From Berberis thunbergii (taxonomy: Eukaryota; Streptophyta; Magnoliopsida; Ranunculales; Berberidaceae), in assembly GCA_003290165.1 (NCBI GenBank), contig QNQO01006218.1, positions 1 through 64,000 on the forward strand: a DNA stretch of 64,000 bases, given 5' to 3'. Shown piece by piece: positions 8,024 through 50,121 of this stretch. Under the pieces are notes generated by a model. The model ran no database searches. It saw only the letters and a program-made list of their open reading frames with translations, and was not told the origin of the DNA. Both the position numbers and the translations under genes were made by a program. The stretch's first letter is position 1. Each line of letters begins with the position of its first letter.

Positions 8024-8128
8024 AAGGGACTAGTGAAATGATTTTTTTTCAAGAAGTCAGTCAAGGGAAGAGCAATTTGTCCATATCCTTGGATGAACTT
8101 TCTGTAATACCTTGTGAGACCTATAAAA

Positions 8129-28800: not shown

Positions 28801-31800
28801 GAATATATCGTTAAAGCTTTCTAATGTTTGGCTATCTATATCCTCAGCCTTTCAATCCAAACAGATCCCAAGGGAGGTATTGAGATTGAGAACCTTGTGA
28901 CCATCAGAGTGAGCGACTTTAATCAAGCTAAAAGGCTCTATATCTTAGGCAGCAGGTTCAGATCAACTGCTTCAACTAACTCTAATGCAACTTCAAGCAG
29001 ATCTCACTGGTACTCCTTTCCCCAAAAATATGACTTTAAATTTAAGCATTTCCATATGACTTAAACATCAACTCTGAACTAGCGACTTTGATTTTGATAT
29101 GTCAAAAACAGCTTGACTCGGATATCTTTGACTTGTTTTGATGCTCCCGAGAGACGAAGAGAAACCAACAAAATATGGATGGTTGATCTTGGTGGAAGTG
29201 AGCGTGTTTTAAAGACCAAGGCATGGGGGAGAAGATTTGAAGAAGGGAAATCCATCAATCTATCTCTCTCCGCTCTTGGAGATGTCATCAGTGCTCTTCA
29301 AAGGAGAAAGTCACATGTTCCTTACAGGTAATAACAGTAAGACTTGCTGATAAACTCGGTGCTTTTCAAAGAAAAAGAATTCTTTATCCTTTTTCATGTT
29401 TTACTGGTTAAATTCATCTTCAAAGGATATAGCTTATTTGTAAATTCTGAAGCAGAGTTAACCTTTAATATGAGAAAAATTATTGGTTTGGAAAAGATAT
29501 CTTATTAACATTCTTGAAATTGGGTTTACCAGTTGATAATGCTTACTTCAACATCCTAAACTTGGTTTCAACATTTTCAATTTTGACAGGAATAGCAAGC
29601 TGACACAAGTCCTTAGAGATTCTCTTGGTAACTATGCCTTTGATTATTTTTTCTTTCCGAAAACTTCAATTTTTTTTTTTTTTGTCAAAGGTGTGATAGC
29701 TCAATGGCTGAGTAGTGGCAGATGGTGTGATAGTGCAATGATTATCTGCTAGAATTTATCTTGTAAAACTATTATTATCCAAGAAGGATGGAATAAATTC
29801 CTTCTGTAATATATTCTTGGGCAACTTATGGTGTAATTAATTCCCCTTCTCATAAAAGGGAACACACCTAGGCGATCTCTTAAGAGGGAAAAACCGTTGG
29901 GTGTATCTAATTTTCTTTGATTGCTAGGAAAAATGTGGGGATTTTCATAGATTATGAGATGATCGCTATCAATACAAACCCAATACTATGAATATATGGC
30001 ACCATAACACTTGGGCAACGACTATTTGGCACCACAAATTACTTTCACCCACACCACCCATTTGAACTACTATTCATATTCTTCCTCTCTCACCGTCTCT
30101 TCTAAAAAACAACGACAATAACATGGAAGTAGGTAGTGAGGAAAGTGGGGAGTTGATTGCGAGGGACGATGAGAGACGATAGGCGATGGCGAGAGATATA
30201 GGAGATAGAGCCACAACGACCGTCCCCCTTCTCCAATTTCTTTTTCTCCCTCCCCTCTCCCAGTTCTCCCACTATATCTTCTTCTCCCACTTTTTTTTTT
30301 CACAGGCCGTCACCCCCTCTCTCTCTCTTTTCTCATTCCCCGCACTTTTTGTTTTTTTCCTTGCCCTCGCAGTGGACCGTGTGAGGATGGGTTCCCTACT
30401 TGCACAGGTCGCTAAGAGAGCAAAAGAATTTTACCCTCGCATAAGTTCCTGCGAGGAGAAGGAGAGGGAGAGGGGCGATGCCGAAATCGAGGTCAAGATC
30501 CTATAAAGGTTACAACTCTTTTTCTTCTTCAACTTTGTCTTCAATTTCGATTTGAGAGAATGAAGAGGATATGCGAGGGGTGCTTTGGGGTGCCCCCGAA
30601 TGGGGAGGGAAGAGAAGAAGAGAAATTAGAGAAGAAGAAGAAGATCAGAGAAAAACATGAGAAGAGGAAAGATCGAAGAAGAGAAGAGGAAGTTGGGTGG
30701 GAAGGAATCTTTGATCGTTTTAAATTTGGGAGGGGAGAAAAATTTAGGTTTTTCCTTTTATGGGTGGTGTGGAAGGTAACACTAGTGTGAGAGAGAAAGT
30801 GCATGGTGTGGGAAAGAAAAATTAGATGGGTGGTGTGGGTGAGAGTAATTTATGGTGTCAAATAGTCGTTGAAGGCCAAACACTTCTCTCTCTTTGCATA
30901 CTATCAGACCATATCCACAATTGGGATTCGGGGGCTCCTGCGCACAAAGCACAAAAGGAGGTCTTGTGCACATCTCTCAGCCGTCGGATCTGATTCGACG
31001 ACTCAGATTGATGGATTTCAAAAGTTGTTTGTTTTGGCAAGGGATTGAATCTCTTTTGAAATCCATTGATCTGAGCCGTCAGATAAGATCCGATGGCTGA
31101 GAGATGTGCACAGGACCTCCTCCTGTGCACAGGAGGCCCCTCCCCCCCACCCCCCCGCCCGAATCCCTACAATTGCAACGAAAGAAGGCCCCAAGGAACA
31201 ATGCCTGACGGTGTGTGTCATGGTCAAGGTAGTTTGGTAGTTTCTATTATTTTATATGGGCAGTATCGTCATTTCTTCTCCTCCTCAACTAAGTCAAACT
31301 TATCTCCTCTATGCTTCAGAAATTCTTAATGGCCTGGGAAAACCGGCGTGGTTGATTGCCTGGGGGGGCGAAAATGCATTTTTGCCCCCCCTCCTTGAAC
31401 ACTTTCTCTAAGTTGTTTAAAGAGGGGGGCAAAAATGTATTTTCGCCCCCTCAGGCAGTCAACCAGGCTGGTTACCCAGGCCAGCTAGATCAACTCTCTA
31501 TGCTTACCTTCATTTCTGATCGTTTACTTTCAAAGTTTCACAATGGATCATTGATTCAATTCAAAAGGATACAAAAGCATATGGGAGATACCATTTCTCC
31601 CTCCTTTACCAAATATAACCAGACACCAATTCAATAGAAGCTTCTCATCACTGTAGTCTCTAGCTCTCACCTCCACTGATTGATGGGTTTGACTAACTAA
31701 GATTTTTGTCATACAGTTAAGTTTGTAAGGACAATATTGTCAATTGATCGAATAACACAAGCTCTTCTTCAAACTCTTCTCATTCTTTTCCGTTTCTCAC

Positions 31801-34518
31801 TAAGGATGACTCCTCTTTGTACATCTTCGATTGGAGAAAGCCTCTCACCTTCTTCCTGGAGCAAACTTATCACTATACATACAAATCCACTAGAACCTCA
31901 TTGTTAGAGTCCCAACCATTTATGCAGCTTCATTGTGATTTTTTTTTTTTGGGTGTTCTTTTAAGTTCCCCATTATCATCTAGGGTTAGAAAGCATTTTT
32001 GGGGTGATTTGAACATGTTGATGATAATTAAAATTTTTTTTTTTCAAAAGATCTAACAATCTGGTGTTGACCGGAATAATACGTGCAAATTTTCACAAAA
32101 AAAAAAAAAAAAAAAAATTTGTGTGAGCACGCATTGCGTGGGTTGGAGGCTAGTATTACATAAGTAAAAGTAAAATGGATCTTTTTGTTCCTGCATCAGA
32201 GGGGAACATGCTTCTTTGACTTAATTATAGTACCCTTTCATGTTGTCCAAAAACTTTATTTCTTTGTTACAGGAGAGGATTCAAGAACCTTAATGCTTGT
32301 CCATGTAAGTCCCAAAGAAGAAGACTTGTGTGAGACTGTGTGTTCCTTGGGATTTGCAACGCGGGTCAGAAGTATTCACCTAGGCCATGATGAATCAACT
32401 GTAAGTTCTTGTACTTCTTTTTGCATGTAACATGATTATTGGGTCAAATGGAAAGCCAACCGATGCAATGAAGACAATCCTTACCTCTGCCACTAAGCCC
32501 ACCCCTACATAGCTATTTCTTCTTTTTCAATGATTTAGTGAGACTGGTATCAAACCTTTTTCACTACATATTTACCCTGGATTAACAGGCCAAAAAAAAA
32601 CAGATGATCACCCAGGAAATGACTATCATCACACTATCCAAAGTGCTTGGCACTTTCATTTTCAATTGAAAAATGTTGGACAATACCTTTGATACCTCCA
32701 TGAGATATGAAGTTCACTCAAACATTTCATTCCCTGTACTGAATCAACACCAATCTCTTACATAACATGCACATCTCCTCTAGTGTTCAAATTTAAGCTA
32801 ATTATTAACGATTTTATATGATTCATTTAAACCAGGAAGCACAAGTAAAAAAGGAATTTGCAATGGCCAATCTTCTCCAAAAGGTGAAGCAGCTTGAAAA
32901 TGAGCGCCAGGATGCCAGAGAAAAAATAAAAAAATTAAATGACAGACTAGAACATTTTACAAGGAAGGAGCCATTGGACGCTAACCACTTGTGTAATGAA
33001 CTGCTACAAGGTGACAAAAAGATGGAGAGGGAGGGTGCTGGGGCTGTTACTTCGTCTCTTTCTTTACAATTACCTAGATTTATGAGGCCAACTGTTTGCA
33101 GTCGAAAGAAATTTGGTATGGAACACCATACTAAAGATCGTGTGCACAAGAAAGGTCGAACACCTTCAAGGAGAAAAATATCTTCAACTCGTGCAGTGTC
33201 TGTGAGTTTCCCCATAAAAGGTATTTCTGAATATGGGTCTGAGTGCAGCATCTCTAAGACTAGCTGCTTTACAGATTATGGAACTGAATATAGTCAGAAC
33301 ACATCTGAATGTGATGTCAAAATGGTTGTTAACACCATTGAGTCCTCAGAGAGTAATTCAGCTCACGAGAAGTCTCAACTCAGCAACGGTAATGGAAACA
33401 CAATCAATGTTGATTCGTCAAAATGCTTAACTGTCGATGATTGGCTTCGGCTACAGAAGAACAAATCAACTGGTACTTGCACCCATGGGAATAAGCGGGT
33501 ACTTGCTATTCCTCTCCCAGTGAAGAAGAAAAACAGTAGCACAGTGAATAAGGCCAATATAGTAGACCAGCAGGAGGAGTTCAATCTTGATTTCACAAGG
33601 AACAAGTCCCATGATGAAGCAGAGAAACTTGTTAAGATAACGGTCAGTGAAAGGTCTACTGCAGAAGTGGCAATTCACCTAACAAGGACTTTGTTGGACA
33701 TACCTGTAATTGATGACTCCGGGTCAGAACCCATATCTCCATATGAAAAGATAATAGAAGCAACACAATGTTCCTTTGAGTGTACTCTGGAAGAGAATGA
33801 TATATGTCATCCCGTTTCACCACCAGATATTGGCTGTAATGGACTCATGAACGATGAACAGTTTACTCAACAACAGGTATTAGTAACAGATGAGATAAGG
33901 TGTTCAAAGGAAACTTACACAAGCAAGGTAGCCGAACATAATACATTCTACCCGAATGAAGAGTACCATGACCCTTTACCAGAAAGTGAAATGGAATCAG
34001 AAAGCCCGAACTTGCAAACAGAAGTTTCCCGTAAATTTGCAGTTAGTTCCTCTAGAGTTGTAGAGATCGATAGAAAACTACAAAGAGCAGCCTCTATATC
34101 AGATGAAATCATGTCCAAAGAAGTGAATGATAAAGTTGAGCTTTGCATCTCTCCTCAACGTGTAGAAAGTGCAAGAAGAATTTCCTTGTACAGCATGAAA
34201 TCTCGAAGAGCCTTATGCAAAGACTTAAATGGAGTGGATCAAATGGATTATAATGTAGCCTGTGGGAAATTTGATGAAGAAACATGCAATCCAGGTGAGA
34301 ATTTGAGCTCTATTCAACCGATAGCTTATGCATCGCCATATCTATCCTGAAGCCTAACATTGTACATACTGACTTTCCTTTTTGATAAATTTTATCTTTC
34401 AGGCATGTTCAAGCTTCTTGGAAAGAAAGTTCAGACGTTACACGCTGGTGCCCTTCTAGCATTGGGATTTCAAGATTTGGGACTTGAACATGACTTCTTC
34501 TATGCCCTAACGCTTTGA
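25840..34518 (+). CDS. KIN-14 family kinesin, 11 exons, 961 aa
   Basis: Exons: 25840-26068, 26178-26261, 26613-26780, 26910-27016, 27431-27609, 28848-29009, 29112-29327, 29590-29627, 32273-32400, 32836-34294, 34403-34518. All junctions are GT-AG and in phase (2,886 nt). [11 protein letters not shown] at residue 105 is the KIN-14 neck/motor start. The P-loop is GQTGTGKT (186-193), switch I is NATSSRSH (302-309), and switch II reads DLGGSE (about 335-340) where most kinesins have DLAGSE. A short coiled coil ([20 protein letters not shown]) and a long Ser-rich tail without a known domain follow; the last exon is hydrophobic and ends in FFYALTL. KIN-14 motors move along microtubules towards the minus end. 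Intron 8 (2.6 kb) and intron 5 hold transposons. Confidence 0.93.
27265..27370 (+). mobile_element. degenerate SINE-like fragment in KIN-14 intron 4
   Basis: A B-box-like GGGTTTGAACC and a distal GTTTGCCTTTCAC resemble the SINE family 1 layout. The A box is poor, so this is only a probable old copy. Confidence 0.3.
28106..28761. mobile_element. hAT-like element in KIN-14 intron 5
   Basis: Inverted ends CGGGTGGGCA and TGCCCACCCCTA match the ends of the hAT at 22957-24301. Subterminal GGGATGGGATCGGGATG and its inverse are the repeat type of this MITE group. A clean 8-bp duplication was not found. Confidence 0.65.
30017..30870. mobile_element. 44-bp-TIR element in KIN-14 intron 8, 854 bp
   Basis: The first 44 bases (AACGACTATTTGGCACCACA...) recur inverted at 30827-30870 with about four mismatches. 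The interior is purine- or pyrimidine-rich and has no transposase; frames there are low-complexity. No target duplication is evident. Confidence 0.6.
30924..31166. mobile_element. Mutator-type MITE in KIN-14 intron 8, 243 bp
   Basis: Near-palindromic element with ends GGATTCGGG and CCCGAATCC, flanked by CCACAATTG and CTACAATTG (8 of 9). A 9-bp duplication fits Mutator-like elements. Inner arms share GTGCACATCTCTCAGCC and its inverse. Confidence 0.75.
31331..31482. repeat. 152-bp inverted repeat in KIN-14 intron 8
   Basis: Arms GGCCTGGGAAAACCGGCGTG and its near inverse flank a G/C-tract pair (GGGGGGGCGAAAATGCATTT). It looks like a small foldback element; no target duplication was identified. 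Confidence 0.55.
32129..32153 (+). other. Helitron-like 3' end
   Basis: A short hairpin (ACGCATTGCGT) lies 10 bp before CTAG followed by T, as at plant Helitron 3' ends. No 5' end was identified, so this is a weak call. Confidence 0.3.
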
Positions 34519-35217
34519 AGGAGTGTTCTCATTGTACATCAAGAAATTGGTTCCACCTTCTACTTTGTTCATTTAGATGATCAGGGGTCGAAGCTTTACC
34601 CGACCTTACTGTTCTCTGTACTGAATTTCAACTGTATCAATTTATTAGCATCTCATGTCAAAGCATAGGAGTGTTTCCTGCTCTACACACTGAAGACACT
34701 GAAATTGGATATAATTTTTGTCTTCCTATTTGATGTAATATATGGAAGGCAAATTTTCCATTGACACTTGCAATTACTAATTCCTTTTTTCATTTAATAA
34801 TTTACATTGCAATTCTACACAATGAATGTCGAGCTAACCAAAATTTGCCCAGGCAACATATTAACACATGGTTAATTAGTTCAAGAGAATCTTGTGGTAT
34901 TAACACATTTGAATTAGCTTGAGAAAAATCAATTAGGCTCTTGATTAGGATATTGTTTTCTCTTCTCTGTTTTTGTAGAATCAGTTAAGGCATTGAGTGT
35001 GATAGTTTTATCTTTTTTCTCTATCAGATATTTGAAGCAGTGTTTTAGCCTTTCTCTTCCAAGAGAAGACTCAAAATTAGAGTTGTAATTTTATAATGGA
35101 ACTTTAAAAAACATTTGAAAACTATTTCTAGAACACAAATAGTACAATAATCTAACATTTGAAAACCAACCCCTCAAAATATTGATCAATTATAACTAAA
35201 CTGCCGACACAATTTAT
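34519..35217. other. KIN-14 3' untranslated region and spacer
   Basis: About 250 bp after the stop codon probably belong to the KIN-14 transcript. The rest is AT-rich with no recognised feature. Confidence 0.4.
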
Positions 35218-35423
35218 TGGATAATTTTATTGGAAATACCCATAAAGCAACCCATTTTATGTCTATACCCCAACCTTTTAGAAGTTTAAGAAGATTTCTC
35301 CTTTTCTCTTTTTAGCTCTTTCAGAAAAATTAATTAAAGTTAATGAAATAAGTGATTAAGGAAAGTAATTTATTAATCCATTTCCCAAATAATTACCTTT
35401 TAACTCTTTGAACTCCCCAACTT

Positions 35424-35559
35424 GCTAATGGCATGACAGCTCAACGGTTAGAACTTGGTGAATGGTACCATTAGGTCATGGGTTCAAACTTAGATTGCCA
35501 CATTTTTAGTGGGTTCTGGAATCCTATAAAAACCCTACTTGCCTTTCAAAAAAAAAAAA
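35424..35559 (+). mobile_element. tRNA-derived SINE, family 1 copy b
   Basis: Starts GCTAATGGCATGACAGCTCA, ends in CTTGCCTTTC and an A tail. An exact 13-bp target duplication AACTCCCCAACTT lies at 35411-35423 and 35560-35572, proof of retroposition. The B box is slightly decayed (GGTTCAAAC). Confidence 0.9.
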
Positions 35560-35844
35560 AACTCCCCAACTTTCTCATTTCACCTTTTAATTTATTATAT
35601 TTGATTTATTTCAGAAGAGATTACCTATTTATATTTAGTAACGCTTAAACTGTTATATGTGAAGTATGTTCATACTGTTTGAGTTTTCATTCATATTTGT
35701 TGGTATTAAATAGTAAATTTGTTGTGCAGGTGGCGAGAGCTTGGAGACTTTGGCTTTAGTTTTATTGCAAAACTAACCTATATAGCAAGGGCTTGGAGGT
35801 TATAGATATTATTTGTTGTTTTTAAGTAGTAATTTTTTTAAGAG

Positions 35845-36190
35845 TGAAGTGTGCGACATACATGCACATACTTCATACCACTTGTTAAATCTTAATTGTT
35901 TGTCAGTGTTAAATGACATTTATGCTTAATGGTTATATCTGATAAATGCTGAAGTTGTTTGATTTTTTATATGAAGTATTTTGAAAAAGAAATAAAATTT
36001 TAAGAGTGTGTCGCGTGTAACATAGATGCACATTGCCAATGGTAGCCTGGTTGGATGGTTAAGGCTGTGGTGGTTTAACCCCCACGTCTTGGGTTCTATA
36101 CCCACCGGCAACACGCTTGCCTTTCAAAAAAAAAAAAAAAAAAAAAAAACATAAATGCACATACTTCACACCACTTGTTACACCTTAATT
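35845..36190 (+). repeat. local duplication interrupted by a SINE
   Basis: The segment around 35845-35905 (GACATACATGCACATACTTC, CCACTTGTTA) recurs at 36003-36033 plus 36148-36190, with the second copy split by the SINE at 36034. The duplication therefore predates that insertion. Confidence 0.6.
36034..36147 (+). mobile_element. tRNA-derived SINE, family 2
   Basis: A box TAGCCTGGTTGG and B box GGTTCTATACC are followed by CTTGCCTTTC and about 25 A. Flanks AACATAGATGCACAT and AACATAAATGCACAT form a 15-bp duplication with one mismatch. The head differs from family 1 but the CTTGCCTTTC tail is shared. Confidence 0.85.
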
Positions 36191-36736
36191 GCTTATCCCA
36201 GGCTTATGGAGCAACATCTCATCCACTGTGAAAGAGCTGGTTCAAAGTGTTTAATATTTTCCAGAGTGAAGTGAAGGCTTCATTGGCAACCATATCAACA
36301 GAGAACATGGAGATACAAATTTAATTAATAAAATGCAACTAAATAGACCATGTAAACCTTGCAAACAAAATACACAACAAATTTAAGCAATCGAGAAGGC
36401 TTTTGGAGTCGCAACAACTGTGTAGGAGCTGGAGTGAAGTGAATTCAGGCTTCATCTCTGCAAAAACACAAATTTAAGCATCCAGAATCACAACCAAACA
36501 TTAATAAGTAAAACTTGTAAAATAAATAAAATATTCTGAACTCTGTGAATTCAGTTCACACTGTTTGTGATTTTCAGAAAACCAGAGATCTATACAGACC
36601 ATTACGAACCCTTAAATCAATCCATGGATCCAACCAGAAAATTATGAACCCAAAGAAAGAACAACTAGATCAATGTGTACATTACTAAATCCATCAAGAA
36701 AACCTTCACACACACAAAAAATAAAAGCCCAGATCT

Positions 36737-36955
36737 TCAATCTCCCCCTACCAGAATTTTGAGTTTTAAGACAATGGGTTTCAACTGGTCTCCTTGAACC
36801 ACCACTCTCGCCTTCTTCCGTAGATCAGGATTCATTCTTTTCAGTTTGGGGGGCTTCAGTGCGTCATACCCGAGCTGCTTGAGGCGTGATCGGTCGAGGT
36901 TGTTCCCTTCCTCAAGCCCCCAGATCGGCTGTAATGGTGGTGCAAAAGGTGACAT
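36737..36955 (-). other. unrecognised coding-like fragment
   Basis: A minus-strand frame reads GLEEGNNLDRSRLKQLGYDA then KLKRMNPDLRKKARVVV. Its composition looks like real protein, but I do not recognise it and no flanking exons are seen. It may be another captured gene piece inside the outer inverted-repeat element. Confidence 0.35.
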
Positions 36956-37154
36956 GTGATGGGGGAAACAACTTTTGTGGGAGCAAAAATTCTACGCAGC
37001 CCATCCTCACAGCCCGTCCCATGGGACGGACCCTCCCAGGCACGTGCCTTTGGGAGGGCGTCTCGCACGTGCTCGACTGAAGGTTCAAAAACAAAACAAA
37101 AAAAAAGCGGGAAATCTGATTTTGGGGGAAACTAAAAAGAGGGAGACTGTGTTT

Positions 37155-37476
37155 GACAAGCAGTCTTTGATCCAAAACAATTTGGTGAAGTATGGGGTGT
37201 CCAAAACGAGATGAAGAAGCTTTCTAAACTCACTGACGAGGAGATTCGAGATTGGCTCAGGGAGTTGTAAGATGTTGCTTATGCTGCTGAAGATGTTTTG
37301 GAGGAGTGGGAATTTCAAGATCAGCAACAAGCCTCCGGAAAGGTGACTGATTCTCTCAAAGAGCTCAAGGAGAGTTTTGATGAACTTGCTAAAGAAAGTG
37401 GTCAGTTTGATTTACAAAAGGGAGTTGTAGATAAGGGAGTCAGTTCAATTCTGGGGATGGGTGGACTCGGCATTTG
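37155..37476 (+). pseudogene. captured NLR (CC-NBS) resistance gene fragment
   Basis: Readable pieces are SLIQNNL, EMKKLSKLTDEEIRDWLREL, a stop, DVAYAAEDVLEEWEFQDQQQ, and SSILGMGGLG then a stop. These match the Rx-type coiled-coil domain (EDVLDEW is its usual EDVID-like motif) and the edge of the NB-ARC P-loop (GMGGLGKTT) with the parts between deleted. The mirror copy lies at about 37690-38011 on the minus strand. It cannot make a resistance protein. Confidence 0.8.
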
Positions 37477-37482
37477 AAACCC

Positions 37483-37568
37483 ATGGCGAAGACGAAACCA
37501 GGAGTGAAGAAGGACTTGGAGTTCTACACCATCCATGAAACCAGCAAGACCGTGAAAGGTAACGTAGT
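37483..37568 (+). pseudogene. captured fragment resembling EBS/SHL N-terminus
   Basis: The frame reads MAKTKPGVKKDLEFYTIHET then SKTVKGNVVLLY. Plant EBS (a BAH-PHD histone reader) begins with MAKT..PG, then KK(D/E)L.SYTI.GTNK. The match is short and from memory of the family, so the identity is tentative. The mirror copy lies at about 37595-37680. Confidence 0.5.
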
Positions 37569-38569
37569 TCTACTTTATATCCGCCAGCTTAGAAACTACG
37601 TTACCTTTCACGGTCTTGCTAATTTCGTGGATGGTGTAGAACTCCAAGTCCTTCTTCACTCCTGGTTTCGTCTTCGCCATGGGTTTCAAATGCCGAGTCC
37701 ACCCATACCCAGAATTGAACTGACTCCCTTATCTACAACTCCCTTTTGTAAATCAAACTGACCACTTTCTTTAGCAAGTTCATCAAAACTCTCCTTGAGC
37801 TCTTTGAGAGAATCAGTCACCTTTCCGGAGGCTTGTTGCTGATCTTGAAATTCCCACTCCTCCAAAACATCTTCAGCAGCATAAGCAACATCTTACAACT
37901 CCTTGAGCCAATCTCGAATCTCCTCGTCAGTGAGTTTAGAAAGCTTCTTCATCTCGTTTTGGACACCCCATACTTCACCAAAATTGTTTTGGATCAAAGA
38001 CTGCTTGTCAAACACAGTCTCCCTCTTTTTAGTTTCCCCCAAAATCAGATTTCCCGCTTTTTTTTTGTTTTGTTTTTGAACCTTCAGTTGAGCACGTGCG
38101 AGACGCCCTCCCAAAGACACGCGTGCCTGGGAGGGTCCGTCCCATGGGACGGGCTATGAGGATGGGCTGCGTAGAATTTTTGTTGTGGGAGAGGAAGGAA
38201 AATGAATGGCTATATATTTGAGGAACATGAATCTTCTCACTTGATTTGAATTTTTTTTTTGGGAAATCCTTCACTCTTAAGCATAGATAATCAATGCTTT
38301 CTTTAGATTAGTTAATGAATTTATTTTCTATATATTTTTTTTTACAATAACCACAAAGATTAATTAACATTAGATTACTGAAAGGGTAAAAGAGAAAAGG
38401 GGAATCTTCGTCAACTTCTAAAAGGTTGAGGTATAGGCATAAAAATGGGTTGTTTTATGTGTATTTTCAATAAAATTATCCTAAACTATTTGAAGCCCTC
38501 CCCTCCTCCAATTATTTATAAACTATAAATAGACTCTTATAAAGTAATATTTGTTTGCTTTGGTTTTTC

Positions 38570-38800
38570 TATTTTACCCTTCAAACTTTATAACCAAAAG
38601 CACTGTCAAATACTACTACATTAACTCAAAAAAAAATTGATCATGGCGCAGGTCGATAATATACAACACGTGTATCTTTCTATCTTACCCTCTGAACTTT
38701 AGACTTTAAAATAAAAAACCATCGCAAACACTAATACATTAACCCAAAAATGGGTCGATGGCATGTCACAAGTGCATCGCTTGCTTATTGAAGAGAAAAA
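38570..38800 (+). repeat. diverged tandem units, as at 21.75 kb
   Basis: Two units share ACTACATTAACTC-type and GGTCGAT..ATACAACACGTG blocks with those at 20715-20790 and 21750-21965. Confidence 0.5.
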
Positions 38801-38857
38801 AAAAACATAACAAATATAAATTTTGAAAACTTATTATGTGTCTATATTAAGGTAGTA

Positions 38858-39004
38858 GCTAATGACATGACAGCTCAATGATTAGAGCTTGACAGATAGT
38901 ACCACTAGGTCATGGTTCGAACCCAGCTGACTGCATGTTTATTAGTTTATGGTGTGTTGACTAATTCTGATCTTTGATAGGTTATGGGATCCTGAAAAAA
39001 AAAA
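38858..39004 (+). mobile_element. tRNA-derived SINE, family 1 copy c
   Basis: Starts GCTAATGACATGACAGCTCA, has the B box GGTTCGAACCC and ends in an A tail. Flanks AAGGTAGTA and AAGGTACTA agree at 8 of 9 bases. Compared with copy a it has an extra stretch before the tail. Confidence 0.82.
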
Positions 39005-39248
39005 GGTACTAATAATGTATTAGTGTTTGACAAGGCTTGGGTTTTCATTTAAAAGACACAAACCAACCCGTCTAATTGTCGAGGGAATGGGCGAGAAAAA
39101 CAGCGAGGGAGAAAAAAAATTTGAAAGGAAGATTTGAAGAAAGTTTGATAAAAAGTATGCATTTGCTAATAACTTGTTGTTAGCAGAATTCATAGCAGCA
39201 AGGGTAGACACGAATCAGAGCATACAAAATATACATGCCATGGGACAT

Positions 39249-39501
39249 TGACAAGATTAAGGCCAAGTTGTCACCTTTCATTCATTCATCAGCAATATAA
39301 ATACTATAGTCAAAATACAATAGGAAACCACCATACACTAGGAAACCTCCCAAACTAAGGAAACAAATCACTAGCCATCGGAAAGTTTCCTAACCCCATA
39401 AAACTTGCAACACAATATGATAAAATATATTTTCCTAACAATAGGATGTATTTTCTAATACTGGAAGATATTTTCCTAACAATAGGATGTATTTCCTAAT
39501 A
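39249..39501 (-). repeat. 3' LTR, 253 bp
   Basis: On the minus strand it starts TATTAGGAAATAC directly after the polypurine tract and ends TAATCTTGTCA. The ends are thus TA...CA, not the usual TG...CA. It is nearly identical to 43379-43632. Confidence 0.9.
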
Positions 39502-39513
39502 CCCCCCTCAAGT

Positions 39514-40320
39514 TCAAGCATGAGGGTTAAAAATGCCCAACTTGCCAAGGAGATAATTGAACTGCGATTTTCCCAAAGCCTTTGTGAAAATGTCTGCCAA
39601 CTGATCAGTCGTCGGCACATAAGAAAGAGCAATAAAACCATTCTGAATGGCATCATGAATGAAGTGACAATCAACTTCAATATGCTTCGTACGTTCATGG
39701 AAGACGGGGTTCTGCGCAATGTATATGGCAGACTGACTATCACAAAATAGGGGAACGGCCTTGGGATGAAGTACCCCTAAACTCAATAATAAACCTTTCA
39801 ACCATTTCAACTCACACATTATGGCGGCCATAGAGTGATATTCCGCCTCAGTCGAAGAACGAGAAATCGTATGTTGCTTCTTAGTTTTCCAAGCAATCGG
39901 AGAATGGCCCAGAAACACCAACCACCCCGTCAGGGACCTCCGAGTAATAGGGCAAGCGGCCCAATCGGAATCACACCAACCTTGCAAAGTCAAGTCACTA
40001 TCCGAGCGCAAGAGAATACCGTAACCCGGAGTACCTTTCAAATAGCGGACAACGCGCAATGTAGCATCCCAATGCTCCTGTCGCGGTTGCTGCATAAACT
40101 GAGATAGCACATGAACCGAGTACGTCAAATCAGGACGTGTGACCGCCAAATAGACCAAACGCCCCACCAGACGCCTATAAGACTCAGGATCCGAGAGAAG
40201 AGAACCCGTGGCACGCGCTAGTTGATGGTTTTGTTCGATCGGAGACATAGTAGGCTTCGAACCCAAGAGACCCACCTCTGAAATAATATCAAGTGCATAT
40301 TTACGTTGACAAAGAAACAA
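39514..40320 (-). pseudogene. copia RT end and RNase H
   Basis: Frame of 268 codons: FLCQRKYALDIISEVGLLG, RRLVGRLVYLAVTRPDLTYS, WCDSDWAACPITRRSLTG, KKQHTISRSSTEAEYHSMA, CDSQSAIYIAQNPVFHERTK and ADIFTKALG. The RNase H acidic residues (D in CDSDWA, E in STEAEY, D in CDSQSA) are present. It is one frame off the upstream RT. Confidence 0.88.
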
Positions 40321-41276
40321 CCCTGCAGAGCTGCGGGCAACCTCAATACCAAGTATTTAAGGACCCCGAGGTCCTTCATATGAAAACATGAGCCAAGGTA
40401 GCTTTTAAACAGAGCCAAAGCAGCAGAATCATTCCCAGAGAGTATTAAATCATCAACATACACGAGCACATTAATTTGAACCGGCCCCTTCTTATAAGTA
40501 AAAAGGCAATAATCAGAATATGATTGTAAAAAACCATACCCTTTTAAAGCTGACACAAGCTTAGCAAACCAACATCTAGGAGCCTGTTTCAATCCATATA
40601 GAGATTTACGCAACCGACACACTAAACCAGGTTCATCAGAGGTAAAGCCAGGATGGAGTTTCATACAGACCTCCTCATCGAGATCCCCGTGCAGAAAAGC
40701 ATTGTGTACATCCATCTGATGCAACTCCCAATTTTTAGAAGCCGCAATTGCAAGGAATGTGCGAACAGTCGTCATCTTTGCCACTGAAGCGAATGTCTCG
40801 TCATAATCTATCCCTTCGGTCTGATGATTACCGAAAACAACCAAACGAGCCTTCAATCTCTCAATACTAGCATCAGATTTGTACTTTATCTTATACAACC
40901 ATTGACTACCAAGAGCCGAATAAGGCAACTTTTCCATAGTCCACGTCCCATTGTCTTCCAAGGCCCGCATCTCCTCTTGCATAGCGACGCGCCACCCTGC
41001 ATCTTTTACAGCCTCCTTAAAAGACTGTGGCTCTTTTCCAGCTGTAAGAGCTGCAATAAAATTTCGGTGTTTCACAGAAAAACTGTCACAACTAACATAA
41101 TGTGCTATAGGATAAGGTGTACCTGAGGGAGGTAAAGATGTAGAAGCAGGTGAAGCGGAGGATGGACTATTTTTCTTTACCGTAGTGTGTGTAACAAAGT
41201 CACGTAGCTTAACCGAAGAATACTTTTCCCGAAAGCCATGACCTAAATGCTCACTTGGCGGAGCATCTCCCGACAC
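40218..41276 (-). pseudogene. copia reverse transcriptase
   Basis: Carries WRVAMQEEMRALEDNGTW, KARLVVFGNHQTEGIDYDET, HQMDVHNAFLHGDLDEEVCM, SLYGLKQAPRCWF and the catalytic VLVYVDDLILSG. The frame is lost after LGVLKY (about 40350), where intact copies continue FLGIEVA, and resumes in the RNase H frame. The proline- and alanine-rich linker to integrase lies at about 41280-41460. Confidence 0.88.
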
Positions 41277-41461
41277 TGCCCCCCTGAATCATCCGTATGA
41301 GAAGGCGTAGGCAACACCTGTGGCTGCGGTGCAGGGAGCACGGGCTGCAACGGCGTGGCGGTGGGCTGTGGTATGGCTCGCGGCTGCTGGGCTGGGGCAG
41401 GCTTGGGTGTGGACGGTGTGGCGGCCTGTGGCGGGGGCTGCAGCTGTGTGGTGGCCTGCGG

Positions 41462-42571
41462 CTACTGGTCTAGAGCACCCCTGTGCGTGGGAGGGCGTAC
41501 TTGCTGCACCTCCTCATCATTTTTTAAAAAATCTGGAAAATCCACAGCCACCCCTTCATGCAGATCACAATGAATGTCATTGCGAGCAGCAAACTTAGTA
41601 GCCTCAACATCAAGATATGGGAACACATTATCATAAAACGTGACATCCCTGGACACAAAAAATCTTGCTTGTCCAAATCAAACAAATACCAACCCCTTCT
41701 TGCCAAACGAATATTCCACAAATACACATTTACGACTCCTACTGACAAACTTATCACCCTTTGCCTTCTGATTATGGGTGAAGCACAGAGAACCGAAAAC
41801 ACGCAATTCACCACAGGAAGCCGGATCACCAAACAAGACTTTATATGGATTTTATTGCCAAGAATACTAGAATGTGTCCGATTGATGATATGAGCAGCGG
41901 CAAGGGCACATTCCCCCAAAAAATAAAGCGGTAGACCACCCTGAAATCGTAGTGCCCGAGCAACATTCAAAATGTGTTTATGTTTCCTTTCTGCCCGACC
42001 ATTTTGTTGAGGAGTCCCCACACAAGAAGTTTGAAACAGAATTCCATTGACCAAAAAATAATCCTTGAGGCAATTAAATTCAGTACCATTATCACTACGA
42101 ACAATCTTCAATTTCAGAGAAAACTGTCTATCAATCATAGCTATAAAGGACATAAACATTTTAAAAACCTCCGTTTTATAAACTAACAGATATATCCACA
42201 CAGCGCGGGAGAAGTCATCCACTAATGTCAAAAAATAGCGAGCCCCACAAGACGAGGGTGTATCATATGGCCCCCATAAATCACAATGGACTAATTCGAA
42301 AATGCGAGTAGATTTATTGTCACTTAACCGAAAACTATCCCTAGAATGTTTAGCTAGATGACAAACTTCACATGCTTTATTCAAGTTACCACTAGAATTG
42401 CTAAAAAAAAGGAAGCAACTTCACCACTTTCTCGGAAGGATGCCCCAATCTGCGATGCCATAGCTCCACAGAAGTTGAAGGAGCAACTGAAACTGCTTTC
42501 ACCTTTGTCTCCTCCCGTAGGTAGTATAGTCCATCCCTTCTGTCACCCGTTCCAATCACATCCCTCGTGTG
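41462..42571 (-). pseudogene. copia integrase region
   Basis: GLYYLREE and VELWHRRLGHPSEKV mark the gag-pre-integrase/zinc part; HCDLWGPYDTPS, RSDNGTEFNCLKDY and QQNGRAERKHKHILNVAR carry the DDE residues. Lesions: TGA near 42557 where an Arg codon is usual, a T-run slip near 42400, a frame change near 41860 (after SSILGNK) and another near 41650 (after LDKQDF). Integrase inserts the cDNA into host DNA. Confidence 0.85.
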
Positions 42572-42919
42572 TCAGTCCTGGATAGCACACAAGTCGGAGT
42601 TAGTTATGAATTCGCAATTTATATCATCACTCAATTGTGAAGCCGAAATTAAAGTACGATTTAATTTTGGAACATAAAAAACATGGTTAAGAATAATTTT
42701 GTCAGTAAGCTTGACAATTCCTTCCTTCAAGGCAACAACGTTCTGACCATCCGGGAGGCCAACAGAACAGGGAGTCACAGTTCTTAGATCCGACAAATAC
42801 GACAAATCTCCCGTAACATGATTGGAGAACCCAGTGTCAATAATCCACTTGCCATTCAACCGATTAGGGGAAGGGTGAGGAGTGCTGAAAGCAGCCATGA
42901 GAGCCTGCCATTGTGCTGC
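42572..42919 (-). CDS. copia protease, in frame with HIPP-like segment
   Basis: NGKWIIDTGFSNHVTGDLSY is the copia protease active site (DTG kept); LPDGQNVVALKEGIVKL and ILNHVFYVPKLNRTLISASQ are the usual following blocks. It is fused in frame to the HIPP-like sequence upstream and ends at a stop after CAIQD. Confidence 0.85.
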   Translation of the reverse strand, partial: AAQWQALMAAFSTPHPSPNRLNGKWIIDTGFSNHVTGDLSYLSDLRTVTPCSVGLPDGQNVVALKEGIVKLTDKIILNHVFYVPKLNRTLISASQLSDDINCEFITNSDLCAIQD

Positions 42920-43360
42920 AGGAGGACCATTGTCACAGTAGAGGCCAGTGTTATGTGGAGTAAAGGGTGACCTATAGTACATCATCTGGGGTTGCATGTA
43001 TTTGCTTTCATTCATGTTCATTATCACTGAAGAAGGTTGAACATTGCTGTACTGTTGACGCCCATTATTCATGTTCATCATCATAAGGGATTGATGAAGC
43101 TGATGCAACCCATCTGATGCTGCAAACCCCCCAGATCCTTGGAGTTGGAATACGTTGTTTGGTGGCTGAGCTTGAAAACCAAATCCATTACCTCCAACCA
43201 CCCCACCACCAACATTAGCTGCTCCATTATTGCCATGAAATCCGGCTAGACCCATCATGGTATTGATGTCATTCCCCCTTTTGCCTTCACCAACATTATG
43301 GACGTTATTCATCTTTACTTGTCCCATGTTCTTTTGATCAGTGCATGTTGGAACCTTCAT
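42920..43360 (-). CDS. HIPP C-terminal-like segment in the gag position
   Basis: The frame begins MGMKVPTCTDQKN just after the primer site and is rich in Gly, Asn, Met and Gln: MGLAGFHGNNGAANVGGGVV, SLMMMNMNNGRQQYS, PQMMYYRSPFTPHNTGLY. The last motif closely resembles the PQMMY.RSP..P.TGYYY tail of heavy-metal-associated isoprenylated plant proteins. The metal-binding domain and the CaaX end are absent. I infer capture of a host exon that replaced gag; the similarity is recalled, not searched. Confidence 0.7.
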
Positions 43361-43378
43361 ACCCATGCTCTGATACCA
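43361..43378 (-). other. tRNA-Met primer binding site
   Basis: Minus-strand TGGTATCAGAGCATGGGT abuts the 5' LTR directly and matches the initiator tRNA-Met complement. Confidence 0.9.
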
Positions 43379-43632
43379 TGACAAGATTAAGGCCAAGTTG
43401 TCACCTTTCATTCATTCATCAGCAATATAAATATTGTAGTCCAAAATACAATAGGAAACCACCATACACTAGGAAACCTCCCAAACCAAGGAAACAAATC
43501 ACTAGCCATCGGAAAGTTTCCTAACCCCATAAAACTTGCAACACAATATGCTAAAATATATTTTCCTAACAATATGATGTATTTCCTAATACTGGAAGAT
43601 ATTTTCCTAACAATAGGATGTATTTCCTAATA
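43379..43632 (-). repeat. 5' LTR, 254 bp
   Basis: Nearly identical to 39249-39501, with TA...CA ends. A minus-strand TATATT or TATAAATAC-like box could drive element transcription, but its exact site is unclear. Confidence 0.9.
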
Positions 43633-43637
43633 GACAT

Positions 43638-44216
43638 ACCCAAATAGTGACACCACCACCGCCCAACACCATCGTGGTGGCGCCAAAAGCCAACCCCTCT
43701 CCGTTGTCAATCCTTCCTCAGTTGATCAACACATGATCGTCAATCTTCGTCAAGTCAACCGTTTGCTCACAGCTCCACACCAGCACACGTTCGATCGGAG
43801 CCCACTTCCACCACCACTCCTTGTTCCCCACAGTCGGCAGATCGTTGTTCACAACCATTACAACAAGTCGATCACCATGTCAGTTCACAACGATCCACAA
43901 GATCGATTGACACTAGGTCCATTGTCAACCCCTTTCCACTTCCAGTTTGATCGAATTCAAATTCGCTTAGTCAGTCAATCCCCACAATTGATCGAAAGCT
44001 TCAGACAATCCACAAAGATGATTGCGAACCCCATGAGAGTCAACCGATCGATTCTCTCCAGCCACTTCCTCATTCGATCGTCTTCAACTTCCTCGCCACC
44101 ATCATTATCCGTAAAAGCCCCCTCATTCCTCCATTACCGACCCGACCACAGTCTGTCGATCAATCCATCGCAGCCCTTTCTCGTCGCACCCTTCAATCAT
44201 ATATCACCATCCCAAT
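43638..44216. other. no recognised gene; His/Pro-rich open frame
   Basis: A plus-strand frame (43733-44329) is 198 codons but has no known motif, is rich in Ser, Pro and His, and runs into the hAT element at 44217. The sequence resumes after that element, so it is an older repeat, perhaps retrotransposon leader. Confidence 0.35.
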
Positions 44217-44704
44217 TAAGGGCGGATCTACTGTATGCCCCCCTTAGTTTATTTAAAAACTCCACCAAACTAATCATATTTGCAATCTTGTCCCTTCTTG
44301 AAATTTTGGATTGCCTCTCCTATATATAATGGAATACAAGTATATTCACAAAGTCTCAAACCCTTTGCAAGTTCGCAAGCCTTTGCAAGTTCAACTCTCC
44401 CCCTTCTCAATCGCACAAGACAATTTCAACAAAGATCGATTTCCTCCAATCGCACAAGATGATTTTGACGGAAATCAATTTCCTCCAATAGCACAATACG
44501 ATTTGGACTAGATTGGACAAGACATAACATGAGAACCCACAAAGAGCTTCTACCAAAATTCAACGTGCATTGACACATTAAGTATGATTATCTTGTACTA
44601 CTTTTGAAACATTTTTTAATCATATTTATCTATTTATTTTAAGAATTAAATTATCTATAATATTTTTTTGTCCCCCTTTGTCTGCAATCCTAGTTCCGCC
44701 CCTA
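44217..44704. mobile_element. non-autonomous hAT element, 488 bp
   Basis: Ends TAAGGGCGGATCTA and its near inverse TAGTTCCGCCCCTA are flanked by an exact 8-bp duplication ATCCCAAT (44209-44216, 44705-44712). No transposase. Confidence 0.87.
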
Positions 44705-44712
44705 ATCCCAAT

Positions 44713-45339
44713 CATTGTCGCTCGATACTGTCGTCAACCTCTTCCCCCTTGATCAAACAACTCTTCGATCTGTTGTTGCCATTGCAGTCCATGCGCAACG
44801 CAAGTTGCATCACCCCCTAATCGCAACAACTCCACCGCCTGTTTATGTCGTGTATGTGGAGGAAGACACTCCATTTTACAAAGTAGTCTTGTCCTTATTA
44901 TTTTTAATCCAGACCCTGTCCTTGATTTTTCAATTAAGTCCCTGGACCCCTTTGGATATCACACCCTGATAATCTGTTTGCACCTCCACAAGTTATTTGT
45001 TCTTGTACTATTTTTGATCCAATTATTAACCACCATCTGATAGCACCATTGACACTGCATGATACATTTTCAGATCCAATTTGGGAGGTTTTTGTGGCTA
45101 ATTTTTAGGAAACATTTGCGAACAATCTCTAATTCATGAAGTGAGTTTCCTTTGCAACAAATATTCATTTTGGACATTATTTTTTGAAGTGCATTCTTGA
45201 TTTGATTGTTGATGCTCCAATAACTACAAAGGAAAAATTAGAAGTCAATTTCTACTTGGACACTTCACACTTTGTTGTTGCTTGTGCTCGTATGATTTCC
45301 TTGACCTCAAGCTCGAGGAAAGCTTCTTCAATGTGGGGA
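44713..45339 (+). other. retrotransposon 3' internal remnant
   Basis: Diverged sequence ending GACCTCAAGCTCGAGGAAAG and ATGTGGGGA, which looks like the polypurine tract of a plus-strand LTR element whose LTR follows. No pol domain is readable. Confidence 0.45.
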
Positions 45340-45560
45340 TGTTGATGTAATTAAGATATTTATTAATATTAGCAATAATAGTATTTTTGGCATATTAAGA
45401 ATTCTAATATTATTAGGACATTATTTCCAATTAGGTTTTAGGTATTTTTTAGAAGTAGGTTAGTTATAGATAAGGCATAGATTGTTCATTGTTAGTTGAT
45501 TGATGAAAATAAGTTTATTTCCTTTATTTATTGTTGATTTACTTTGTCGTTTAATTTACT
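45340..45560 (+). repeat. LTR, 5' part, plus orientation
   Basis: Starts TGTTGATGTAATTAAG after a polypurine tract and resembles 53504-53660 (GATGTAATTA, TTATTAGGACA, ATTAGGTTT). Its 3' limit is unclear. Confidence 0.5.
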
Positions 45561-46047
45561 TTATTTTGGTTTCAACATTGTCTTTCAAATTTTGTTGTTC
45601 CACAAGTTATATTCTATTACAAACACTCATTGTAATTGTTCATCTACCTTTTGATTTTGCTTGTAAATATTAAAAAGTTGGGAGGGAAAAACCAGAAACA
45701 AAAAGTTAGAATTGAATACATGACACTACTCAACCAAGGCTTCTATTGTTATAATAGTTTCGATATTTGCATGACGACTTTCCAAGGATTTTGTTTGCTT
45801 CGATCTACTTGATCTACACTTCTTGCTTATTTGATTACGGACACTTCAATATTCTAGTGAGGCATACCAAGTCATGAAATTGATAGTACAAAATATGTTG
45901 TAACAATTCCGCAACAAAACCCAAAAACTTATAAATCTATAATTTGAAGGATTCAAAATAAATAAAATGACTCAGAAAAACACTAGGTGAAATTTGAACT
46001 TAAGGAAAATGTTTGAAGCTTCAGTCTTCACATAATTGTTACCCTAA

Positions 46048-47639
46048 TGTAACCTTAAGTGTGAATTAAACAAATCTATACAAAAGATAAATAAACCTAA
46101 ATAATCTCCATTGGAGTTTCTTCATTCATAAAAAAACCCGGCTATATTCAATGGCCTATTGGCCCCTATTTACACTAAACCTAACTTGCAAAGCAATCTA
46201 ACCTAAATCCTATGGGAACCCTAATCTCCAGTTATTCTATTATGAGTTTATTAGGCTCGACCCAACAACTAAACTAAACTAAATTAAATAAATAAACTAA
46301 ATTCTATGTTATATCATCCTCCCCAGGTTAAAGAAGCTTGAAGTCGAAGAAGTCAAACGAACATAAGCATTCACTTAAAGAATATAAGGCATAATACACG
46401 CGAAGTAGACAACCTCGAAAGTTGTCACGATACAAACTTGCTATAAATAGCATCAACTCAAAAAAGTTGCAAGGTGACTCGAATAATCATAAGTTGTAAT
46501 AAACCTACTGAGAAGACTCTTGCACATAAGCTCGTGTCACAAAATATTTCCAAAATGGGTCGATATAACCAGCAACACTCACTATGTTTGTTGCTGTAGA
46601 AACATCGTCTTCTTGGCCAAAATGGGAAAGAAATCACCAAAGTCAAATGGCCCACATTTCGAAATCAAGCATGTCGAAGGTGCCTTTAACTTCCTAAAAA
46701 AACTGAAGGGGCTATAATAAACAGTATGGCTCATTCGACTCTTTGCGCGTCTGCCAAGTTCGCCTTTCGCTAATTGTTCTCATCCGCTGGTATATCTCCT
46801 TCACTTTTGAGGCAAAGCAATCGCCTATCCGTTCTGCTAAGTCACTTGAAAACTTCTTACAGTCTTCTCAACCTGTATCACAATGGAGGTGGTAGTGGGG
46901 TTATGTCATTGGTCATGACTGAGGGTGTTGTAGGAAAAACTGGTGCACATTAGGTGTAAGGGGGTATATTGGTGGTTTGTGGTTGAGAATAGTAAACTGG
47001 TTATGGGTATTAAACTTGACCGAAGCTCGGGCTATATGGATAATGGTATGGGGATGGAGAATTGTATGGGTATGGTAAGAATAATAGGGGTTTGGATATT
47101 GGGAAAAATATGGGTTACTTTTTTTAACTATTGGGTGTCTAACGAATTATAGGGTGTAAATAATCTGATAGCTGATGAACAGTACACGATGAATAAAGTT
47201 TGCAAAAAAATTTATTTTTAATTTTGCAAGCACTTCTCCAAACCAACTTTTGCTCTTCACTTTTTAACCAACTAAAATCTTCTTGTTTTTCCTTTTCTTA
47301 TTCTTCAAACAATAATCTTCTGAACCCATGAATCCAAGAGCTTCATCAATGTTACTAAATAATGTAACCTAAATTATGTATTAAACAAATCTACACAAAA
47401 CATAAATGAAACTAAATAAACCTAAATAATCTCTATTAGAGTTTTTTCGTTCATCAAAAACCAACTATAACCAATGGTCTATTGGCTGTATTTATACTAA
47501 ATCTAACTTGTAAATTAAACAATCTAACTCTAAATGTTATGGGAGTTATAATCTCCACTTATTCTATTATGAGCTTACTTAGGTCTGACCCAATAACTAA
47601 ACTAAATTAAATAAATAAACTAAATCCTATGTTACATCA
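46048..47639 (-). mobile_element. non-coding LTR-type element, 1.6 kb
   Basis: Two direct repeats, 46048-46316 and 47363-47639, both run from TGTAACC to ATCA on the plus strand and are clearly related over about 270 bp (ATTCTATTATGAG, CTAAATAATCTC). On the minus strand CTGGGGAGGA precedes one copy like a polypurine tract. The 1-kb interior has no coding domain, as in TRIM or LARD elements. No primer site or target duplication was found, so a simple duplication is not excluded. Confidence 0.45.
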
Positions 47640-48131
47640 TATTGTGTCGTGATTATCTGTATTTTCTTTGCATGGATACACCAATAAACGATTACTACGC
47701 ACATGGTTGAACTAATAATCAAGTTCTCATTTTTATGGGACGGACTTGGCATGTCATCTACAAGCGCACTTGTCTTCTTCGTTCCCTATCTTTTCCAGCC
47801 CTCCCCTCATCCAGTCGCCTACAATACCTACATTCATGGAATGAGATTCCATCAACCAAATATACCCTTGACTATTGTTCTTAATAACTGAAATCTCGGG
47901 AAAACCTTGATTCTTTGGTAGTAAAATCTCACACCTTTTTTTTCTTTAGCCGTTTAAAGCAAATTGATGTATTAACATAAACTGATTTTTCATGTGCGAA
48001 GCCACCAATGGAACCAAACATTTGTGCACATCTGGGCAAAAAAAGTGTAATGAGATTAGTAAACACCAGAGGTAGAGACATAGTTGTTTAGGAGCTAATG
48101 AATTCGGAATCTGATTCTCTCGACATGCAAA

Positions 48132-49672
48132 GGGTATTAAAAATTTGGGTTTTTTTGAGTTTGACCCTCAGTAGTTTATATCCAAATGAGTTTAGCTCTT
48201 ATTTAATTTTAATTGAGTCTAAAACCCTCATTTATAACAGATCTGTTAGGTCAACCACATTGATCGATAAATATTGATTTAATGACTAAAATACCCTACA
48301 TTAAATGCACATGCTCCATAAATGAAGCAAAAGACTTAGATTATTAATGTCAATCCCGAGGTAATCCTAGGTCTGAAAATTGAAGAATTAAAAATCCAAA
48401 ATTTATCCATATTCTCCACCTTTTCCTTATCTTATTTTAATTAGCAGCCAATGTTCGGTTTAGAAGAAGGAAGATATGTACCTTCTTCAGCCTGCCGGCT
48501 CAATCCCAAAAATGAATATGCCTATCTACTCTCGAAGACGAATCAACAATATTGAATTTGTGATGATATTTGCAATCTACTCTCCTCACAAAATATGCCT
48601 ATCTTGCGTCACTTGATTCGTGTTGCTCTGTAGTGTAGTTCGCTCGATTTCTAATCTTGGCCAGTGGTGGTCAAGCACATTGACTGGCGTGTCTATGCTG
48701 ACTACCAAATTCAATACCAATTCATAGTCATCCATTACACTTTAAAAGCTTCTCCTACGACCTTATAAATTATAATAATAAGAAAATTAAAAACATGAAA
48801 AAACAAAAATAAATAGAGCTTCTTACTTTATTTACATATAAACAAATGACATATTTCCAATTGGAAACAATGATTGTACGGGGAAGGGTTTGTGAGAGGA
48901 GAGCTGATGCTGCAACAATGGAGGGTTTGAATTCTAATAACTAGCTTTCTGTACACAAATTGAGGATTAGTGATTGGTGATACACATTAACTATGTGGCT
49001 TATATTAAAGAATTAGAGTTGTTATTTCTTCCATACCATTTTGAGATTTGAAGAGGATTTCTGTTGGCCGAGCTTGTAAGAATGGCGGATTTTTGAGTTT
49101 AAATAACGAGGCAAAGAAATGAAGAAACGATAAAGGAGTTACAGAACGCGTTTGCCATTTGATAATCAGAAGCTCCATTCGCTCTATAGTTTGTGAATCA
49201 AACATGAATCCTTCTTCCTCTCCGAGTAGTATTGGATTCATTGATTAAATCTAAAGAGAAACGTATTTAGTGAGTGAACGTGCAGAGGGCGAGGAAGAGG
49301 GGGATGGGAGAGGAGGGTGGTATTTTCTATATTAAAAAACAGAAGAGAAAGAAAAAGATGGTGAAACTCGATAGATTTGGGCCTTTTAATTCTTCAATTT
49401 TCAGACTTTGGATTACCTCGAAATTGACATCAATAATTCAAGCCTTCTTGCTTGCATTTTTTGGAATTCGCACATGCAAGGCATGCGTATTCAATGTAGA
49501 ATATTTTAGCCACTAAACCAATATTTATCGGTCAACATGGTAGACACTAAATGATCTATTATAAAATGAGGGTCAGACTCGATTAAAATTTTAAATGAGA
49601 GTTAAACTCAATTGAATATAAACTAATGAAGGCCAAACTCAAAATAAAAAATTAAAAAACCCCAAAATTTTG
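48132..49672. mobile_element. inserted element with about 150-bp inverted ends
   Basis: GGTATTAAAAATTTGGG...GAGTTTGACCCTCA at the left recurs inverted at the right (GGCCAAACTCAAAATAAAAA, CCCCAAAATTTTGAATACT). It interrupts the left arm of the larger inverted repeat. The interior has no recognised gene. The target duplication is unclear. Confidence 0.55.
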
Positions 49673-50121
49673 AATACTATATCAAATAGTTCAAAATAAG
49701 TGAAAGCAAAATCATTATTTCAAGGCGTTTTGTTGCCAGTAGAAGATTTAGTTTGTTGTGGCTTAGGTTATTATTGGATAAAATTTGAATTTGTAGCATG
49801 CTTTTCTTATTATTTTTATTTCAGAATATAAAATTGGCCAAATGCCCGACACATGATAAAGCTACTCCGGTTAAGCTACACTGAGAATGGAATTGGAACG
49901 ATGAAACTCAAGAATACCTTATACGAACAGTTGTTCCAGATCTACTAGCTAAAACTACAAATCTGAAACTGACAAAAATGTACAGAATATATTAACATTT
50001 GCATCAGGAAATTACTTTTACAATTTAATCTTAGAAAAGAGAGGGGTTGGAATATATATACCAGGAAGAGGAAGATAGATTTCTGCTTTTGGCAAACCAA
50101 GGAACATGGGGTAGTTCTACA

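Follow-up and report, generated by a model that had tools for sequence, protein, structure and literature searches.

Among the closest described counterparts of the locus studied here is Mu killer (Muk) of maize, which PMC3440606 presents as an internally deleted MULE in which both TIRs come from one element end and form an inverted duplication, with a hairpin RNA proposed as its product. The centre of Mu killer could not be sequenced through in that work. According to the same study, plants in which Muk silences contain short antisense transcripts, incapable of forming large hairpins, and plants that fail to silence contain read-through sense transcripts (PMC3440606), which leaves the step by way of a hairpin RNA in dispute for the model system as well. 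MULEs with multiple long TIRs, in tomato and elsewhere, are described in PMC3310237 as having acquired their unusual TIR architecture by duplication of terminal sequence. PMC10004981 names Models 1 to 3 for the origin of MIR genes, and PMC4858842 gives a proposal for rice that 24-nt small RNAs direct the methylation of gene-carrying MULEs.

We analyzed a 64,000-nucleotide stretch of Berberis thunbergii DNA (contig QNQO01006218.1, positions 1 to 64,000), hereafter the window, which contains an element that can be set beside these systems. Like Muk, it appears to be an internally deleted MULE with same-end arms in inverted duplication. Muk carries mudrA transposase sequence and silences MuDR, whereas the window element carries NLR and EBS-like fragments, is 1.2 kb long, has been sequenced through its turn, and is known here from sequence alone. 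It resembles Pack-MULEs in being non-autonomous, in having a 9-bp target-site duplication (TSD), and in carrying captured gene fragments, but its captured block lies within the inverted arms and not between TIRs. In MULEs with multiple long TIRs the TIRs are duplicated in tandem, whereas here a whole end, gene cargo included, is duplicated in inverted orientation. As in the inverted-duplication model of MIR gene origin (Model 1), the hairpin derives from target-gene sequence; the target piece is carried by a transposon, however, and the arms are far too long and too alike for a present miRNA precursor. We found no description of a palindromic Pack-MULE with NLR cargo in the open-access literature searched. 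The features of the element are as follows.

36975..36983, + strand: left TSD TTGTGGGAG, an exact repeat with two copies in the window
36984..37569, + strand: left arm, 586 bp, comprising the TIR end, NLR segment, EBS-like exon, and a short junction tail (alignment and tree)
37014..37029, + strand: self-complementary 16-bp motif within the left TIR end (repeat search)
37148..37472, + strand: CC-NBS (NLR) segment of the left arm, stopping at the P-loop, with a TAA stop at 37268-37270 (Pfam Rx_N; relatives on contigs C876 and C1369)
37483..37558, + strand: EBS-like first-exon segment of the left arm, the name being plausible but weak (PDB 5z8n/5z8l, E values of 1 and 1.5)
37564..37587, + strand: tail of the junction together with most of the loop; its sequence matches that found inside longer relatives, which is attributed to an internal deletion
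37570..37593, + strand: hairpin loop, 24 nt (repeat search, alignment, and fold)
37594..38182, - strand: right arm, 589 bp, read as the left arm copied in inverted form (alignment, tree, shared changes, and junction)
37605..37680, - strand: EBS-like segment of the right arm, the mirror of 37483-37558
37691..38016, - strand: NLR segment of the right arm, the mirror of the left-arm segment
38137..38152, - strand: second copy of the 16-bp self-complementary motif, within the right TIR end (repeat search)
38183..38191, + strand: right TSD TTGTGGGAG, an exact repeat

Positions 36984-38182 constitute an inverted duplication of 1199 bp in total, enclosed by an exact 9-bp duplication. Across the whole window, TTGTGGGAG occurs only at 36975 and 38183, directly abutting both element ends. 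In a global alignment the arms are identical at 578 of 589 columns, with eight substitutions and three gapped bases. Repeat search and alignment confirmed the 9-bp duplication, the 586- and 589-bp arms, and the 24-bp loop reported in a preliminary description of this DNA, and the fold-energy prediction that it had proposed yields a single hairpin from each strand at about -1160 kcal/mol. A chance repeat was rejected, as TTGTGGGAG is confined to the element ends and 9/9 TSDs are found in all ten complete copies of the family (see below). We also rejected a MIRNA precursor, which would be expected to have a short imperfect stem with one precisely cut duplex; the stem here is almost perfect and nearly 590 bp long, and Rfam gave no match at the gathering cut-off in 36500-38700. 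The region 36984-38182 is a real, well-formed Mu killer-like hairpin MULE with resistance-gene cargo.

The genome that contains the window comprises 2.24 Gb in 11,732 contigs; our search of it scored 40 of 2286 first-look candidates, so that its copy numbers are minimum values, and 20 regions surrounding chosen matches were taken for comparison. Both ends were located in ten copies, the window element and those on C6200, C10340, C1413, C5085, C26, C78, C6297, C148, and C1184, which made up the set used for TSDs. Left out were C137 (right end missing), C1281 and C10132 (one end located), and C370 and C7584 (no TIR of the window element's family). Each of the ten complete copies, the window's included, has a 9/9 TSD as the best of a small offset grid, on which 5 of 3000 random pairs reach the same score. 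The ten copies represent seven distinct sites, three pairs sharing flanks, and the TSD of C10340 and C1413, AAAAAAATA, is of low complexity. These TSDs fall within the 9-11 bp that define MULEs in PMC3310237. Long TIRs of about 100-500 bp, as expected of MULEs, are present too: inverted arms reach at least 388 bp in L012, L014, L015, the window, and L017, and merely about 85-89 bp in L010 and L011. Among the ten complete copies, all except C10340 and C1413 (about 85-89 bp) have long inverted arms with NLR sequence. In C6297, C5085, C78, and C6200 the arms measure about 0.39-1.6 kb and the interior about 3-4.4 kb, and C148 and C26 look similar to these two-armed copies.

Relatives of 3.7-7.4 kb contain ankyrin-repeat/PGG and serine-carboxypeptidase fragments and a candidate IQ motif, which scores 20.0 bits against a Pfam cut-off of 20.3. 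No transposase was detected in the 8 frames scanned with Pfam, out of 22 frames of at least 90 aa in L007, L010, L012, and L015. The host-gene fragments within a MULE that mark a Pack-MULE are supplied by the NLR segment, the EBS-like exon being a weak case, and the family of the window element fits multi-gene Pack-MULEs. The Pack-MULE assignment made earlier is thus upheld by the 9-bp TSD, the family TIR, the captured host-gene fragments, and the palindromic body. The 7.4-kb relative L007 (C6200, 1167-8585), which carries ankyrin/PGG and carboxypeptidase fragments, is for the most part a palindrome too; its inverted arms measure 356 bp (99.2% identity) and 1245 bp (99.8% identity).

The NLR segment of the arms matches Pfam Rx_N (PF18052) with an E value of 2.5e-8, above the family cut-off, and is interrupted by a TAA stop in each arm, in agreement with the damaged CC-NBS sequence previously noted there. 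A PDB search with the NLR fragment returned 30 matches, with no NLR among them. Compared with NLR genes, the window arms lack two stretches, and their NLR segment terminates at the P-loop. Both arms also carry the MAKTKPGVKKDLEFYTI segment that had been called EBS-like. Two PDB chains matched it at an E value of 10 or less, both of Arabidopsis EBS (E values of 1 and 1.5), and its Pfam scan found no EBS-related family; the segment is present as described, and its identity as EBS, with one short alignment behind the name, is plausible but weak. Loci on C370 (L020, 4448-5069) and C7584 (L021, 4506-5127) hold an NLR-EBS fusion that includes both stretches missing from the window arms. On C370, an inverted-repeat search for TIRs gave five weak pairs, and the fusion there lacks the TIR of the window element's family. 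The C370/C7584 fusion may represent the captured block at an older stage or on a different carrier.

A tree was built from 23 sequences of arms or fragments together with 3 NLR genes; in it, both window arms and the arm on C137 form one clade (support of 0.995). The arms also pair with each other in C6200 (0.937), C1184 (0.998), and C78 (0.884); those of C6297/C148 and of C5085/C26 are not sisters. Six states, including the TAA stop and one in an A-rich tract, are private to the window arms among the arms compared. In both window arms, and likewise on C137, GTAACGTAGTT adjoins sequence from the interior of longer relatives: arm positions from 573 onward match the interiors of L007, L008, L009, L012, L013, L014, L015, and L016, with junction contexts compared for five of these eight. 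After the EBS-like exon, 10 of 10 other arm ends displayed, from seven other loci, have ACGTTTATTTGAG, as GTAACGT in nine and GAAACGT in C370. This reads like the start of an intron, and the exon of the relatives looks as if it runs on into it. The common private changes and the single internal-deletion junction in both arms indicate that one half was probably copied from the other, and because the window arms and C137 carry GTAACGTAGTT joined to interior sequence, the element was most likely deleted internally before the inverted copy was made. The private changes and shared junction thus give the element the same plan as Mu killer: its two ends would go back to a single end and form an inverted duplication.

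The hairpin pointed out in the preliminary description holds up, although not as a unique structure: members of the family often have long inverted arms, and C1184 provides another near-perfect hairpin, 1296 bp in length, whose arms of 624 bp are 99.4% identical and whose turn point is different. The different turn point suggests that the change to hairpin form probably happened more than once.

A further copy of the locus is found on C137, which apparently represents the other haplotype and would then be allelic to the window. It is collinear with the window at about 99% identity in the three stretches checked (26149-29143, 32654-37598, and 40566-50480), and window stretches 32654-37598 and 40566-43632 adjoin in it, also at about 99%. 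C137 shares the insertion point and the left TSD with the window. It runs through the left arm and the loop and 5 nt into the right arm, and then continues at position 40566, within a Copia element, about 2967 bp being missing.

37599..40565, no strand: stretch absent from C137, covering the right arm and its flank, one LTR, and a portion of the Copia element (contig comparison)

A distance of 17 nt separates the break from the palindrome's centre; a uniformly placed break within the 1199 bp would fall so close in about 3% of cases, and breakage at the hairpin tip would be a natural reading of the deletion. C137 offers a half-deleted hairpin and not the empty site for which a survey of related accessions had been proposed. 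The substitution divergence between window and C137 is 0.65-0.72% in the flanks, and that between the arms is about double (8/586, or 1.4%); with the turn present in C137, this makes the hairpin probably older than the split of the haplotypes, on the assumption of equal rates and no conversion.

The Copia element (window 39249-43632, - strand) has LTRs at 39249-39501 and 43379-43632 that are 97.2% identical. An open reading frame within it, 42572-43411 on the - strand, is a fragment of a HIPP37-type heavy-metal-associated gene (76 protein matches at an E value of 1e-3 or less, the best at 4.8e-22, the named ones from plants) and, by eye, continues into an apparent Copia protease start. Elsewhere in the window, 7514-10170 (- strand) holds broken retrotransposon frames that by eye resemble pieces of a Ty3-type polyprotein.

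Our preferred account, which we hold to be probable, is that the element is a Pack-MULE-type non-autonomous MULE, one end of which was internally deleted and then fold-back duplicated, its NLR and EBS-like cargo having been captured earlier. That cargo, acquired by the family beforehand, would have been an NLR CC-NBS segment joined to an EBS-like exon; in the window copy, an internal deletion at one end would have come as step one, and in step two the deleted end would have been copied back on itself by fold-back (inverted) duplication, both halves thereby deriving from the same end. The simplest route may be fold-back priming across the loop, where TAGAA at the turn is able, by eye, to pair with an upstream TTCTA. 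Against such copying it can be held that gene conversion between older arms could yield part of the pattern, and that several longer relatives likewise have long inverted arms. It is also conceivable, and in our view rather unlikely, that a longer two-armed MULE lost its interior by deletion and that gene conversion then homogenized the arms, with no fold-back copying at all. Two-armed copies with arms of about 0.39-1.6 kb do exist in C6297, C5085, C78, and C6200, and the non-sister arms of C6297/C148 and C5085/C26 imply that two-armed elements are old. A single deletion between two arms, however, does not produce the same recombinant junction in both, and conversion would need to have spanned the whole arm, junction included. 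Palindromes are difficult to sequence and assemble, and the position of the C137 break, just 17 nt from the centre, would suit an assembler having made the second arm or the C137 junction at the palindrome. We regard such an artifact as very improbable, given that the arms differ at 11 of 589 columns, that an exact TSD stands at the outer end, and that C137, collinear in all three stretches checked, holds the turn and 5 nt of the right arm.

When the arm substitutions are polarized by the relatives, seven of eight are C to T or G to A, and the remaining one is T to G; at alignment column 26 the polarity holds only in the nearer subfamily, the other arms having C in 6 and T in 12. By eye, five of the seven transitions fall in a CG or CHG context against an expected 29% (binomial P of 0.025), a signal drawn from seven sites, including an adjacent pair that may reflect a single event. 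This fits decay of 5-methylcytosine in a silenced element and, with so small a sample, may be taken as a hint. An excess of changes in the outer TIR was considered and dropped, being suggestive at most: substitutions number 3/95 there versus 5/491 elsewhere in the arm (P of 0.13), and with indels included the changes number 4/95 versus 6/491 (P of 0.06; counts entered by hand).

C876 and C1369 contain three reading frames with the same NLR segment, 958, 1145, and 1152 aa long. The 958-aa frame (C876) overlaps a second LRR frame and may be shifted near its end. The 1145-aa frame, the sole one scanned for domains, contains Rx_N, NB-ARC, winged-helix, and LRR domains; among the protein matches listed for it (120 of 1900), many are named RGA1 to RGA4, and these matches come from scattered angiosperms at 35-54% identity, a few having no species name. 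Of these NLR frames, the one of 958 aa gives the best match to the arms (97.2% over 216 bp), and the 1145- and 1152-aa frames reach 82.7% and 81.6% over 347 columns, gaps counted. All three values exceed the level of about 80% identity below which NLR parents had earlier been thought too diverged to be targeted. Exact 21-mers present in at least one of the three frames number 131 of 566 in the left arm and 131 of 569 in the right arm, and perfect identity extends over at most 60 nt. Any siRNAs to which the arms gave rise could thus reach NLR genes.

The genome search also returned NLR-like places on C1754, C7378, C3971, C1883, C1187, and C931, as well as further ones on C876 and C1369. Two NLR loci, L023 (C8733) and L024 (C680), have a part of the CC-NBS region repeated head to tail five times at a spacing of about 0.87-0.96 kb, and an NLR locus on C1450 (L025) has two head-to-tail copies of it.

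RNA passing through the locus would be expected to fold into a duplex of nearly 590 bp and to be diced, the products acting mostly on the element's own family through RNA-directed DNA methylation; RGA-type NLR genes that have an exact match of up to 60 nt might be affected secondarily. Silencing of NLR genes by hairpin siRNAs is, judged from these matches, a possible hypothesis. Another reading, which we take seriously without favoring it, is that the locus is an untranscribed, methylated transposon relic with no effect outside itself. The stop codon and missing stretches in the cargo, the methylation-like mutations in the arms, and the deletion on C137 all agree with a relic; long perfect hairpins, on the other hand, are good Dicer substrates when transcribed. 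We find it improbable that this is an active hairpin locus, maintained for the purpose, whose siRNAs silence NLR genes in trans. Its appeal lies in the exact runs of up to 60 nt, in the 131 of 566 left-arm 21-mers shared with one or more of the three NLR frames, of which two exceed 1100 aa, and in the second hairpin of the same family on C1184, but the mainly C-to-T and G-to-A differences between the arms are those of a silenced relic, and half of the hairpin is gone from C137. Moreover, a 72-aa open reading frame beside the left TSD (36737-36955, - strand) had no homologue in a protein database that included plants, a search that is insensitive at such a length, and so provides no known host gene to drive the hairpin. 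For the same reason we dropped the idea of an insertion in the 5' region of a conserved host gene with read-through. More speculative still, and quite unlikely in our estimation, is that the family made NLR-carrying hairpins more than once (the window, C1184, and C6200 close to it), that these hairpins are segregating, transposon-borne regulators of a CNL resistance-gene cluster, and that the C137 copy, cut at the hairpin tip, provides the plant with a naturally arisen loss-of-function allele.

The turn point of the element, the prior deletion, a sibling hairpin, the NLR relatives of its cargo, and a half-deleted copy are all readable in one genome. If transcribed, the hairpin could yield silencing RNAs against the resistance genes of the same plant. 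Should small RNAs be produced, and should C137 prove to be an allele, a single heterozygous plant would allow a test of whether a transposon-borne hairpin can tune an NLR cluster.
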